Source: Gammaproteobacteria bacterium
GTDB taxonomy: Bacteria; Pseudomonadota; Gammaproteobacteria; GCA-001735895
DNA: 44,686 nucleotides
Assembly (NCBI GenBank): GCA_014382695.1
Contig: JACNJF010000120.1
Location: forward strand, 1 to 44,686
Direction of reading: 5' to 3'
The notes under the pieces are model-generated. The model made no database searches. It was not told the origin of the DNA and saw only the letters and a program-made list of their open reading frames with translations. The position numbers were made by a program, and so were the translations under genes. Position 1 is the first letter of the stretch. Each line of letters opens with the position of its first letter. Positions 5,953 to 36,181 of this stretch are shown here, piece after piece.

Positions 5953-7212
5953 TTAGTTTTCGACCAGATGCTCGGCGATAATTTCAGTCATACCAATGAT
6001 TGGTATATCCATATCATAATGCTCCAGTCCTTCTTCCATCACCAGTCGACAGTTCGCACAGGCCGTCACGATGGTTTCAACGTTCAACTCATCGAGCTGG
6101 GACTTTTTGCGTTTAAAAACCTGTATTCTGAGGTCTTCAGCGCGTTCGATCGTACTCACACCGCCACCGCCACCGCAACACCAGTTCATATGTCCATGTT
6201 CGGTCATCTCTACATAGTTTTCAGAGATAGACTTTAACAGGCGTACCGGCTGTGCTTCCACACCTCCGCGTCGCACGATCTGACACGGATCGTGAAAAGT
6301 GATTCGACCCTTTTCCAGTCCGCTTGTTTTGAGGCGACCGGTTTGCTGAAGTTCATCGAGTAATTCAAGAATGTGCACAACCTTGAAAGGATAAGCCTTA
6401 CCAATAAAATTAGGGCCGCCCCAACGGATCGCGGAATAGGCATGACCACACTCCGGGCTGATGACATTCTTCACCTTGAGTTTGACCGCTCCATCGACAA
6501 CTCTCTGTACCAGCTGACCGGCAATTTTACTGTTGCCAATCTGCAGGCCGGAATTGGTTGCTTCAAACGCTTCCGAACACAGTGTCCAGCTCACCCCTGC
6601 CTGTTTGAAAATACGAACAAGAGCGGCAATATATTCCGGAAAATTCATGATTTCCATCGAAGATAGCAGTGCCAGATAATCAGCACCTACCACATCGATC
6701 GGAACCTTCATTCCGGTTTCTTCCTCTACATGACGAATTTGCGCCTGCAGTGCCGGTAGCTTAACCCCCATCGGGCTGCCAATCTCTACCGCACGTTTGG
6801 TAGCCTGCACCAGATCATCCGGTGAATACTCTGCCGCCGCCAGGCCTTCCTTGACCTTTTGTATGATATACGCAATATCAACGCCCACCGGGCATACCAT
6901 ACTGCAACGTCCGCACATACTGCAGCCGTCATACACCAGTGGCTCCCAGTCGGCAAAGTCCTGCTCAGTCAACGATTTGGAAAAACCAAGGCTCTTCGAC
7001 AGCTTGCCCCAGAAGGTATATTCCTGTTGCCACAGCGTGTGTAAGGGTTTGGTTTTGTAGATGGGGGTATAACGTGGATCCTGAGTTTCTGTATAAAACA
7101 GGCAGGATTCTGCACAGATACCACAATGTACACAGCTTGAGAAATACGACTGCACCTTGCTGTCGATCTGTGCGCGCAACTTGTTGAGTCCCCGTTCCAG
7201 TCTTTCACTCAT
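5953..7212 (-). CDS. HdrD/DsrK-like Fe-S oxidoreductase with CCG domain
   Basis: This is a 419-residue soluble Fe-S protein. Two N-terminal [4Fe-4S] motifs are visible: CVHCGICAESC near residue 27 and CSMCGRCSMVCP near residue 97. A C-terminal cysteine-rich (CCG) region follows, with SPECGHAY, FHDPC, WCCGGGGG and TACANC, the type that holds the catalytic cluster in heterodisulfide reductase HdrD and in DsrK. The first of the two expected CCG domains is degenerate (it has VVGADYLALL where a cysteine motif would be). It follows the NarI-like cytochrome gene by 34 bases, an arrangement like dsrM-dsrK or hdrE-hdrD. It probably exchanges electrons between membrane quinone/cytochrome and a cytoplasmic partner. 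GlpC or lactate-utilisation-type proteins are relatives, but the paired cytochrome favours the DsrK/HdrD reading. Confidence 0.85.
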   Translation of the reverse strand: MSERLERGLNKLRAQIDSKVQSYFSSCVHCGICAESCLFYTETQDPRYTPIYKTKPLHTLWQQEYTFWGKLSKSLGFSKSLTEQDFADWEPLVYDGCSMCGRCSMVCPVGVDIAYIIQKVKEGLAAAEYSPDDLVQATKRAVEIGSPMGVKLPALQAQIRHVEEETGMKVPIDVVGADYLALLSSMEIMNFPEYIAALVRIFKQAGVSWTLCSEAFEATNSGLQIGNSKIAGQLVQRVVDGAVKLKVKNVISPECGHAYSAIRWGGPNFIGKAYPFKVVHILELLDELQQTGRLKTSGLEKGRITFHDPCQIVRRGGVEAQPVRLLKSISENYVEMTEHGHMNWCCGGGGGVSTIERAEDLRIQVFKRKKSQLDELNVETIVTACANCRLVMEEGLEHYDMDIPIIGMTEIIAEHLVEN

Positions 7213-30193: not shown

Positions 30194-30985
30194 ATGATGA
30201 AAAATCTGCCTAAAATTTTTATTTCTCTTTTTTTAATCACTCTAATTTCCGCCTGTGCGACCAATCTTGCAGGGCGTCGACAGGTCATACTGGTCTCAGA
30301 AGACAGTGCTATCGATGCGTCAAAACAGGCGTATATCACCACGCTGGATGCCTATGATAAAAAAGGCCAGCTGGATAAAGATCCCGCCATGGTTAAACGC
30401 GTCAATCAGATTACCGCCAAACTCATTAAACAGGCCATGATCCTGCGTCCCGCCTCACAGAACTGGGAATGGAGCGTTAAAGTCATCGATGAGCCGGAAA
30501 CCATCAATGCCTGGTGTATGGCCGGTGGCAAAATGGCGATCTATACCGGACTGATCAATAAACTGTCAGCCACCGATGATGAAATCGCCCAGGTCATGGG
30601 ACATGAAATATCGCATGCTCTGGCCAATCACACCGCTGAACGGATGTCTGTGGCTATGGCCAGTGATATGGCGGTCAAGCTTTATAACTCCACCATTGGC
30701 GATGCAACCGGGACCACTTCACTGGCATCCGCCGCCGCACAGGTCGCGATCACCCTGCCGAATAGCCGAGCCTCCGAATCAGAAGCCGATGAGATCGGTA
30801 TCGAAATCGCCGCCAAGGCCGGTTACAACCCGAATGCAGCGGTGACTCTGTGGCAGAAAATGGCCCAGGCCAGCGGCAGCGGCGGTCTCGAATTTCTGAG
30901 CACCCATCCTGCACCCGGCAATCGTGAAAAAGCACTGAATAACCTGATCCCAAAGATGATGAAGTTTTATCAGGCTGCCAGATAA
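30194..30985 (+). CDS. M48-family zinc metallopeptidase lipoprotein (LoiP/YcaL-like)
   Basis: This 263-residue protease has a lipoprotein signal ending in the lipobox ISAC with Cys21 as lipidation site, and Asn24 at +4 does not favour inner-membrane retention. The zinc motif is HEISH (residues 137-141), with the third ligand in ESEADEIG (near Glu195). The family acts in outer-membrane protein quality control, as LoiP, YcaL or BepA in E. coli. It has no tetratricopeptide repeats, so it resembles LoiP/YcaL rather than BepA. It is a single gene with its own terminator. The C-terminal STHPAPGNRE block is typical of the family. Confidence 0.9.
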   Translation: MMKNLPKIFISLFLITLISACATNLAGRRQVILVSEDSAIDASKQAYITTLDAYDKKGQLDKDPAMVKRVNQITAKLIKQAMILRPASQNWEWSVKVIDEPETINAWCMAGGKMAIYTGLINKLSATDDEIAQVMGHEISHALANHTAERMSVAMASDMAVKLYNSTIGDATGTTSLASAAAQVAITLPNSRASESEADEIGIEIAAKAGYNPNAAVTLWQKMAQASGSGGLEFLSTHPAPGNREKALNNLIPKMMKFYQAAR

Positions 30986-30994
30986 CACATAAAT

Positions 30995-31026
30995 AGCTCC
31001 GGTTTAAGCCGGAGCTGTTTTATTTT
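30995..31026 (+). terminator. Rho-independent terminator after the M48 gene
   Basis: An 8-base perfect stem (agctccgg / ccggagct, six-base loop) is followed by gttttatttt. It begins nine bases past the M48 stop codon. This is a textbook intrinsic terminator on the plus strand. Confidence 0.9.
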
Positions 31027-31788
31027 GCACAGAAATCAATGGCTGCTGTTTGCCGCTAAAGCTACACCTGTAGATAAAAGCATATCCCTGAAAATAGTTT
31101 CAGCGCTGATCAATGATCCGACTCAGCAGACTCGAACTCTGCGTCCTGCCCGGTGACCTATTCTGAAGCAGACTTGATTGAATTGATGCTCGCTAAAAGG
31201 CAACCTGGTGCCAGTTACTGGACTTCATTCAGTCCTCATTCCTGAGTAATTTTAGTGGATAGTTTTTCACACACTAAAGCTGTCTTTGCTTCGTAGTTAA
31301 TTGCTCTAGGTGTGTGAGTTACTTTTTTTGTGCGGCCCGAAGGGTTTAGGTTAAGGACGCCCGGAATACAAGAAGTAACTCACACACGTTGTAATAATCG
31401 GCTACGAAGTGAGGAGCCTTTTTGTGTGTAAAACAAATGCTCAGTAATTGAATGCAGGCGAAAGACTTGACGTTAAAAGCTAGAACCGCATTTCCGCAAA
31501 GGCAGAGAAGTGCCCGTTGATGGTCGCCTCAGTGAGCTACATGTATTGGGGTTTATATTATTATCAATAGACTTGACCCTGATACTTCATTTTGGCTTTC
31601 GTAGGTTATTGCTTGAAAATGATGTGCAATTAACAGGAATAGTAGGTGGAGTTACCAGGCTATAGGGTTGATGTCAGAAAAAATGATTGAATGTTGGGCG
31701 AGGCTCCTCGAATTGATATTTATGGGTAGGGTTTTTATACTTTATTCACTCGGTATAGCTGTCATGTATATTTCGCGATGATGAAAAT
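31027..31788. other. Gene-free region carrying a large palindromic element
   Basis: Over 760 bases without a credible gene separate the M48 gene from the Kelch-repeat gene. The main content is the inverted repeat at 31261-31435, listed separately. The remainder (31436-31788) is A/T-rich with no long frame, and may be debris of older insertions. No tRNA is seen. A promoter for the Kelch gene should lie in the last 100 bases, but I cannot single one out. Confidence 0.5.
31261..31435. repeat. Large imperfect inverted-repeat element (about 60-base arms)
   Basis: Three blocks in the left arm pair, in order and with equal spacing, with the right arm: cacacac (31268-31274) with gtgtgt (31424-31429), cttcgtag (31289-31296) with ctacgaag (31402-31409), and gtgtgtgagttactt (31310-31324) with aagtaactcacacac (31373-31387). 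Between the arms lies about 48 bases of GC-richer sequence. The whole would fold into a long interrupted hairpin. It looks like a small palindromic mobile-type element (MITE- or REP-like) or a structured RNA. No transposase gene is present. Confidence 0.7.
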
Positions 31789-33750
31789 ATGGAACTAAAA
31801 ATGATTATTTCACGGACTCTAGTAACGGTTACATTATTTATTTTCGTTTTGAGCTGTGGGAACGGAAACAATAACCAAAACAAAAACCAGGACGCTAACC
31901 TCAATAGTTGCGGCATTTCGCATAATGCTTACGATAATCAATCCGGTGCTTCTCGATTGTCCCTACCAAGAATTGAACATGCGTCAGCATTATTATTCGA
32001 TTGTACAGTACTTGTAACTGGGGGATATGACGGTACTGATTACTTAAAGAGTAGTGAAATATTCGACCCTCAATCCGGCCAGTTTTTCCTTCTGGATAAT
32101 TCAATGGCTATAACACGTCATGGTCACACGCTGACACCATTGAAAGACGGAACTGTACTAATACTCGGAGGTATGATTGATTCTTCAACTCCCCTTAACA
32201 GCGCTGAACTTTATGATCCGATAAGCGGTACGTTTCAAACATTACCTGGCACGATGAACATCGCTAGAACAGGTCATGTAGCGACTCTGCTGGAAGACGG
32301 TAAAGTGCTAATAATTGGTGGAAGAAACGCAAATGGCGCCCAGTATAGCGCCGAAATATTTGATCCCGACATCGGCAGTTTTACGAGTACAATATTTAAC
32401 ATGGATAGCGGGCGCTATGGTGACTACTCCGCTACTAGCCTGGATGATGGTGGGATATTGATTGCTGGCGGGATAAAAGACTATCCTGGCTTGCCTGGCT
32501 TTAGAGAGCGAAGTGCGGAACTGTATGATCCCATGAACAATAATTTTATCGCTCTTTCGAATAATATGGCGGATCAACGAATGGGTCACACTTCGACTAA
32601 ACTGGCCGATGGTTTCGTCCTCATCACAGGAGGAAACAGTCCAGTAGGATACCTCGATAGTGCAGAAATATTTGATCCGGAACAAAAAGCCTGGAAATCA
32701 CTATCAGCCACATTAACCAAAACACGTACAGGCCATACAGCCACCTTATTAAATGATGGCACCGTGCTCATCATTGGCGGTTATGCAGTATTTTCATATT
32801 CAGATAGTGCTGAGATATATGACCCTAAAACCGAACGATTTTTCCCATTGATAAGCTTGAGGGAATCTCACTCTTCAACACGACTAAATGATGGAACCGT
32901 CTTAACTACAGGTGGTTTTAGCGGTAATAAATATCTAAATGATGCAGAAATTTTTGATTATTCTACCAATAGCTTATCGTTTTTACCTGGGTACATGACA
33001 AGCATACGCTATGGCCACACTTCCACGACTTTACCTAATGGGACTGTCATAATTGCAGGTGGCGAAGATATAAATTTAACATTCAATACTGTCGAGCTAT
33101 TTAGCCCTGAAAATGGCAACTTCACTCCGTCAGTTGAATCTTTAGGGTTACCACGCTCGGAACATACAGCGACATTGCTTGGCGATGGAAGCGTATTATT
33201 TATAGGCGGTTATGAACGCAGTCTTAACGTTAACATACCCGATGTGATATTCGACACGGCAGAGTTATACGATTGGACAACGGGTAATATAATTCCTCTT
33301 CTCAATATCATGGAGACTGTTCGCAAAGGACATACTGCTACTTTGTTGATGGATGGATCTATCCTTGTCACAGGAGGTTATGACGGTAACTTAACGCTCG
33401 ATAGTGTGGAAATTTATGATCCCGCCACTGAACGTTTTACACCGCTTGTTAATACTATGGCTAGCGCCCGGTATGGCCATACGGCAACACTACTTAATGA
33501 CGGGACTGTCCTAATCGCCGGAGGTTACGACGGTGGATCTTTTGTTGGTAGCGTGGAAATTTATGATCCGTTGCTTAACACCTTTACCCTTTCGAGTAAA
33601 AGTATGGCCTCCACTCGATTCCAACATACTGCGATCAGGATCGAAAACGGGGTTGTTTTATTCATAGGCGGGTTCGATAGTAATCTGAATGTCGTTAATT
33701 ATAACGAGGTTTACGACCCAGCCTCTGGTGATTTTTTGCCTCTTAAGTAA
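31789..33750 (+). CDS. Kelch-repeat beta-propeller lipoprotein
   Basis: This 653-residue exported protein starts with a lipoprotein-type signal (ending VLSC). It then consists of about twelve repeats of roughly 50 residues. The repeat hallmark is R-GHTATLL-DGTVLI-GG followed by an SAEIYDP-like strand. Clear examples include RTGHTATLLNDGTVLIIGG, RKGHTATLLMDGSILVTGG and RYGHTATLLNDGTVLIAGG. Twelve blades suggest two six-bladed propellers or one large one. Such proteins serve in binding or as galactose-oxidase-like folds, but no catalytic residues can be named. Codon use is A/T-richer than in flanking genes. It is flanked by palindromic elements, which suggests acquisition. ATG at 31801 (ggaactaaaa upstream) is an equally good start. 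Confidence 0.8.
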   Translation: MELKMIISRTLVTVTLFIFVLSCGNGNNNQNKNQDANLNSCGISHNAYDNQSGASRLSLPRIEHASALLFDCTVLVTGGYDGTDYLKSSEIFDPQSGQFFLLDNSMAITRHGHTLTPLKDGTVLILGGMIDSSTPLNSAELYDPISGTFQTLPGTMNIARTGHVATLLEDGKVLIIGGRNANGAQYSAEIFDPDIGSFTSTIFNMDSGRYGDYSATSLDDGGILIAGGIKDYPGLPGFRERSAELYDPMNNNFIALSNNMADQRMGHTSTKLADGFVLITGGNSPVGYLDSAEIFDPEQKAWKSLSATLTKTRTGHTATLLNDGTVLIIGGYAVFSYSDSAEIYDPKTERFFPLISLRESHSSTRLNDGTVLTTGGFSGNKYLNDAEIFDYSTNSLSFLPGYMTSIRYGHTSTTLPNGTVIIAGGEDINLTFNTVELFSPENGNFTPSVESLGLPRSEHTATLLGDGSVLFIGGYERSLNVNIPDVIFDTAELYDWTTGNIIPLLNIMETVRKGHTATLLMDGSILVTGGYDGNLTLDSVEIYDPATERFTPLVNTMASARYGHTATLLNDGTVLIAGGYDGGSFVGSVEIYDPLLNTFTLSSKSMASTRFQHTAIRIENGVVLFIGGFDSNLNVVNYNEVYDPASGDFLPLK

Positions 33751-34227
33751 TTTTTGGCTGGGTTTATTGTGGCCAGGTCTTTGATTTATGATTACACATT
33801 ATCTCGCATTTCATTCAGTGCCCGGTTTCGCCAAAATCCGAAGCAACCTACAGCCTGTAAGGAATGCCTCCAAAGGGTCCAGGCTGTGTGAAAACTCAGG
33901 TAGTTTCAATTTATTGAAAACTATTCCCATCACCGAAATAAAGTTTGAGCTATTTTGATAGTAATTATCCACTAAATGCTAAAAATCGAGATTAAAGAAG
34001 ATGGTATTTACCACTTTAAATTATCGAGAATAGTTTTCACACAGCCTGGGTCGACTGCGGAAGTACACAACGATCCTTTGAACAGGAGTTTCCCTGAAGG
34101 TTTTGGCAACGCTAATTTACAGACCTGACTATTCAGGATAGCTGCAGCGAACTGTGCAAACCATACTTGAAAACACTTTACCGTGTACGGGCACTAGAGA
34201 CTTAACCATAAAACCTAAGAAATCGTT
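33751..34227. other. Gene-free region between the Kelch gene and dapB
   Basis: This 477-base gap between convergent genes contains no credible frame. Its centre is a 171-base element with 18-base terminal inverted repeats, listed separately. I see no strong intrinsic terminator for either flanking gene, although the element itself could fold and stop transcription. Confidence 0.5.
33879..34049. repeat. MITE-like element with 18-base terminal inverted repeats
   Basis: The ends ccaggctgtgtgaaaact (33879-33896) and agttttcacacagcctgg (34032-34049) are perfect reverse complements. The 171-base unit is A/T-rich inside and has no coding capacity. Further imperfect pairing continues inward. It shares tttagtggata (minus strand, 33966-33976) and atagttttcacaca with the inverted-repeat element near 31251-31274, where an extra t occurs, so the two may be related. 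No target duplication of useful length is visible at the borders. Confidence 0.75.

Positions 34228-36181
<1,954 letters not shown>

Follow-up and report, generated by a model that had tools for sequence, protein, structure and literature searches.

The window analyzed here is a 44,686-nt stretch of a gammaproteobacterial contig (JACNJF010000120.1), in which a short non-coding element sits between the 3' ends of two convergent genes. One gene, ending at 33750, encodes a Kelch-repeat protein with Pfam Kelch matches, and the other, with its stop at 34228, is presumably dapB-like, a name that we take from its sequence. The first-pass annotation had described the element as a 171-base MITE-like unit with perfect 18-base terminal inverted repeats and no coding capacity. 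The 18-base repeats are indeed exact (33879-33896 and 34032-34049), but their outermost base pair belongs to a target-site duplication. GGTC stands at 33876-33879 and again at 34049-34052 as this duplication (GGTC/CAGGCTGTGTG...CACACAGCCTG/GGTC), so the mobile unit is 33880-34048. With 169 bp (<500 bp) and no ORF of at least 100 aa inside it, the unit has the size and the lack of coding capacity of a MITE, as the annotation had it. The features of the element are listed in Table 1.

Table 1. Features of the MITE and of its insertion site (positions in the window).
Feature	Position	Strand	Basis
IS1182-family MITE, 169 bp	33880..34048	no strand	TIRs and TSD; 169/170-bp family in the same taxonomic order
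Left target-site duplication GGTC	33876..33879	+	window letters; 4-bp TSD general for these elements
Right target-site duplication GGTC	34049..34052	+	window letters; 4-bp TSD general for these elements
Left terminal inverted repeat CAGGCTGTGTGAAAACT	33880..33896	+	inverted-repeat match
Right terminal inverted repeat	34032..34048	-	inverted-repeat match
Box 1, degenerate here (CCAT)	33927..33930	+	CCAC at the equivalent place in 14/22 family members
Box 2 (CCAC)	33969..33972	+	42 bp after box 1; inside 33966-33976, reverse complement of TTTAGTGGATA
Box 3 (CCAC)	34011..34014	+	42 bp after box 2

Relatives of the flanking dapB-like gene were found for an empty-site comparison, and the intergenic stretch beside the MITE was not alignable there. 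The stretch from the Kelch stop to the MITE (33768-33866) also matched two sister genomes (G381:C44; G386:C397 and C550) and may be part of another repeat. The sole match of an Rfam scan near the region was RF02621 at 30982-31038, which was sub-threshold (25.9 bits, gathering score 114).

Sequence blocks had also been reported as shared between the MITE and 31251-31274, and the two elements were proposed to be one repeat family or the edges of an inserted segment around the Kelch gene. The sharing came down to one exact 11-mer, TTTAGTGGATA, at about chance level, with two matches in the window at up to one mismatch, a number that 16 of 100 shuffles reached or surpassed. This 11-mer is box 2 of the window's MITE family read backwards, and it did not occur at any of the nine loci retrieved for matches to the 31-kb repeat. 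The 31-kb element (31248-31438) belongs to a different, palindromic family: its long, imperfectly palindromic sequence (fold z -5.9) has AGTAACTCACACAC arms and a GC-rich loop, and the arms recur on four contigs of the window's own genome (C95, C171, C61 and C18 of G000) and in sister genomes. Since the 11-mer was at chance level and missing from the other copies of the repeat that were retrieved, we rejected the kinship, and with the two elements unrelated, an inserted segment bracketed by them is not supported. The loop length of the palindrome varied between copies, being about 350 bp at C95, for example.

A search of the genome for the terminal repeats and for a transposase with the same ends, which the first-pass annotation had recommended, identified an IS1182 element with matching ends. 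The 17-mer end had four sites in G000 at zero mismatches (both MITE ends, C144 and C161), and a 16-mer search added C129 and a second end at C144. The 1691-bp IS at C144:1743-3433 has both ends identical in type to those of the window MITE and carries a 477-aa ORF scoring 438.9 bits against the NCBIfam IS1182 model (NF033551, cut-off 270). Because the ends are common to IS1182 IS, and a same-ended IS with an IS1182 transposase is present in the same genome, the window element is an IS1182-family MITE with a TSD, which is an already known kind of element and makes the earlier MITE-like reading specific. Full-length IS with MITE-type ends numbered 12 including the C144 copy (1664-1763 bp), and the translated ones encode similar proteins. 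IS1182-family IS and their MITEs resemble the window element in having the same ends, a transposase in the same genome, and a 4-bp TSD. They differ in that the window MITE has no transposase gene and that its interior, beyond a terminal match of mostly 28-38 bp, is not derived from the IS ends compared. An origin of the MITE by internal deletion of an IS was ruled out for the IS copies compared, in which the end match was mostly 28-38 bp; L090 and L099 were excluded from this comparison as false pairs, where the MITE itself acted as the "IS end".

At least 116 stretches of genome_contigs contained an exact copy of the terminal 18-mer, far above chance. An exact 4-bp TSD was present in 71 of the 99 short-element insertions with both flanks (105 insertions in all), while shuffled flank pairings gave 13 on average and 24 at most. 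The commonest targets of the short elements were GACC/GGTC (25), GGCC (19), and GGCA (10), describing a GRYC-like 4-bp target. The position between two convergent 3' ends would also suit an immobile hairpin, such as a two-way terminator serving the Kelch and dapB-like genes, and the element has a fold z of -5.9, mostly owed to its terminal repeats. Such a hairpin is very improbable given the TSD and the same-ended IS, and given that unrelated interiors elsewhere carry the same ends and 4-bp TSDs.

Relatives of the window MITE span several bacterial phyla, and their lengths are almost only one helix turn apart. In a first set, the 18-mer-end matches listed (at least 116 stretches of genome_contigs) and the window locus were paired by their ends, and four of 62 pairs were dropped as chance or nested (L046, 131 bp; L076, 149 bp; L002, 267 bp; L066, 295 bp). 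The lengths of the remaining 58 short elements clumped ~10 bp apart among the matches listed. By source, again among the matches listed, element lengths were 202 bp in Anaerobacterium, 139/183 bp in Nitrospirales, 172/182 bp in Methylobacterium, 140 bp in Janthinobacterium, 140/159 bp in Pseudomonas, 159 bp in Serratia, 160 bp in Rhodanobacter, and 169 bp in Mariprofundus. Genome G299 had at least 11 copies of 201-203 bp, as read from match coordinates for 50 of the 116 loci.

Viral contigs were scanned with length-neutral gapped patterns that together covered 41-283 bp. The 34 distinct stretches recovered were 139 (3), 149 (4), 150 (1), 158-161 (25), and 172 bp (1), with no other length, and the shortest-range scan and two of the longer-range scans of these contigs gave no match. 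On one viral contig (L153, ~6280-6630), a 159-bp MITE was closely trailed by a second MITE-like copy, giving a 351-bp pairing. In genome samples searched with patterns of 121-181 bp, all 20 elements were 139-140, 149, 169-170, or 172 bp. Nine of these came from 6 of 41 genomes of the window's order and were all 169 or 170 bp, and two came from 2 of 289 genomes of a second class (149 and 172 bp). Another six were in 3 of 118 genomes from the phylum of the Nitrospirales genome G311 (three of 139 bp and three of 149 bp), and three were in 3 of 150 genomes from the order of the Janthinobacterium genome G313 (139, 140, and 140 bp).

The final set contained 113 of 116 distinct pairs, after pairs of 84, 311, and 351 bp had been dropped as chance or nested. 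The length distribution of these short elements had a helix-like period. Within 2.5 bp of the grid 10.5n + 1.8 lay 106 of the 113 elements, compared to 48% expected if lengths were spread, with the phase of the grid fitted on mostly the same data as tested. The rungs are near 139, 149, 159, 170, 182, and 202 bp, and the seven off-grid lengths (141, 141, 143, 145, 162, 167, and 183 bp) count against the phase model, as does the imperfect independence of the elements. Since element copies are related, their interiors were clustered without the ends before testing, and E values of 0.001, 0.01, and 0.05 gave 35, 24, and 20 clusters, respectively, for which R(10.5 bp) was 0.77, 0.75, and 0.76. In a jitter null with lengths moved by +/- one turn, 0 of 10,000 sets reached the observed maximum at 35, 24, or 20 clusters. 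The 12 full-length IS with MITE-type ends showed no length phasing (R 0.26, p 0.45).

Four families contained homologues differing in length by about one turn. One pair, of 149 and 158 bp, was 75% identical (E 5e-18) with one 9-bp gap. The three 149-bp elements from the phylum of G311 grouped with the 139-bp family, from which a single 10-bp insertion close to one end sets them apart. A 182-bp element was homologous to 172-bp ones in an alignment with several small gaps. In two 158-bp elements, the outer two CCAC boxes of the 169/170 family were retained at their distances from the nearest end (49 and 37); the middle box was absent from these elements, and they were 11-12 bp shorter. The shift of 11-12 bp in this last case and the small gaps between 172 and 182 bp count against clean one-turn steps.

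A ladder of this kind could be an accident of descent, if a few ancient MITE families, each frozen at one length, happened to lie ~10 bp apart. Lengths are nearly constant within a family, and many elements of a given length class are linked by deep similarity. When links were extended to E 0.5, six clusters formed and the test was not significant (911/5000), most links at this level being expected by chance and the clustering still including the 84- and 351-bp pairs. However, the 157-162 class holds several interiors without clear mutual similarity, in four families the length shifted, by about one turn in each case, and the 20 permissive clusters departed from the jitter null no less than the 35. 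A viral scan run with an altered end pattern, once the ladder was already defined, added seven new stretches, all of them on it. We therefore regard common descent as quite an unlikely source of the spacing.

The interiors were also patterned. In the window's family (22 elements of 167-171 bp), the interior was almost saturated with change except for three CCAC boxes, which were found at 48/49 in 14 members, at 90/91 in 19, and at 130-134, typically 132/133, in 20. The spacing was 42 bp in most members, equal to four turns of 10.5 bp, and all boxes were on one strand. The 22 interiors held 54 CCAC, compared to a shuffled mean of 7.2 and a maximum of 15, and only 4 GTGG. Because the elements were oriented by these motifs before alignment, the strand count is no independent evidence, whereas the positions are independent. 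In the 148-bp family (e.g. L031 7821-7968, L057, and L079), a GCAACAATGATTC-like box occurred twice, at 37 and at 68, and matched weakly in inverted form at 99; its spacing of 31 bp is about three turns. Over all families, the periodicity of internal repeats was a weak signal (0.20 at 10.5 bp and 0.24 at 10 bp). The phasing of the boxes suggests that selection acts on MITE interiors and that these are not junk.

The DnaA-box consensus is TTATNCACA. A likeness of the CCAC boxes to it (TTATCCACT in box 2) was set aside, as the last base is mostly T. The 139-149-bp elements (e.g. L021, L033, L040, L291, and L299) had a common interior plan, roughly GGGG...ACCCC...GATCGTGG...GAGG, which seems to be shared across phyla in spite of their lack of coding capacity.

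The boxes raise the question of whether length is set from within. If they are sites for a host or transposase protein, their fixed spacing alone might determine how long an element is, as the 42-bp spacing in the 169/170 family and the repeated box of the 148-bp family would allow, and in the window's family the 42-bp boxes could themselves set the length. As a general account this is unlikely: the ladder is common to families whose box sequences differ, and the 158-bp relatives are still at a rung length without the middle box.

We consider it likely that the window element is an IS1182 MITE mobilised in trans, whose ends are paired by looping so that helically phased lengths survive. An IS1182 transposase, such as the one at C144, would mobilise the non-autonomous MITE in trans, binding both 16-17-bp ends, which it would have to bring together. 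The DNA between the ends of 140-200-bp elements is about one persistence length. DNA of ~150 bp resists twisting, which means that pairing of two sites along it requires both to face in one direction. The loop would thus close well only with both ends presenting the same helix face, and elements off by a fraction of a turn would be neither moved nor copied. Under this proposal, the surviving families lie on a 10.5-bp ladder because off-phase elements do not move. In the window's family, the three CCAC boxes four turns apart would be protein sites on one helix face; the boxes probably hold the interior in a defined fold, and a protein on them may shape the loop. The window MITE is the single full copy in its genome, which counts against this explanation as far as recent activity is concerned. 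A more far-reaching version, which we judge about as likely true as false, is that IS1182 MITEs occur at no lengths but whole turns, with rungs from 13 to 19, and grow or shrink one turn at a time. Their interiors would then be phased protein-site arrays (42 bp, four turns; 31 bp, about three), by which the element is wrapped up with the transposase in a defined complex.

The constraint might instead come from the closure of a small excised circle, in a copy-out route or as a circular intermediate, rather than from end pairing in the donor. A circle of 140-200 bp would likewise need whole turns and obey the same length rule as donor looping, and the best periods with free phase were 10.4-10.6 bp (bootstrap ~10.0-11.1). 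We find the circle rather unlikely; IS1272 of the IS1182 family is reported to use an inverted-repeat-replacing route (PMC5678879).

The usual view of bacterial MITEs is that they are decayed remnants of IS, with no particular length. In work on IS50 by Goryshin in 1994, transposition of short constructs reportedly depends on length and twist, which resembles the ladder in that length or helical phase matters for short elements. Those experiments used engineered lengths and a transposase of another family, whereas the IS1182 MITEs are natural elements. A natural parallel that we drew is with the IES of Paramecium, which have lengths periodic at ~10 bp (fitted period 10.2 bp), are mostly <150 bp, and are excised by a domesticated piggyBac transposase, the periodicity being read by the authors, who cite the IS50 experiments, as DNA looping in a transpososome-like complex (PMC3464196). 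IES share with the IS1182 MITEs a length periodicity near the helix turn, but they are eukaryotic and undergo piggyBac excision, while the elements here are mobile bacterial MITEs of 138-202 bp. Because an IS1182 transposase and a GRYC-like 4-bp target are found here in place of a piggyBac-type excisase, the likeness is one of behaviour and not of membership. Other bacterial MITEs are, like the window MITE, short, TIR-bounded, and non-coding, and vary widely in size according to a 2024 review of prokaryotic MITEs (QMITE1, 39-400 bp; Chunjie, 178-235 bp; PMC10969869). The main text of this review does not contain "helical", "periodic", or "IS1182", and a literature search that took in few subscription papers returned no report of a helical length ladder or phased interior boxes in bacterial MITEs.

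On the more far-reaching reading, the length of a short bacterial transposon may come in steps of the helical turn, and natural IS1182 MITEs appear to have run the length-phase experiment themselves. A helical length ladder would be a natural record of transpososome geometry that needs nothing but sequence to be read. From it follows a direct prediction for length-series assays with IS1182, and it could help to find out which families of transposase bring the two ends together within the donor.
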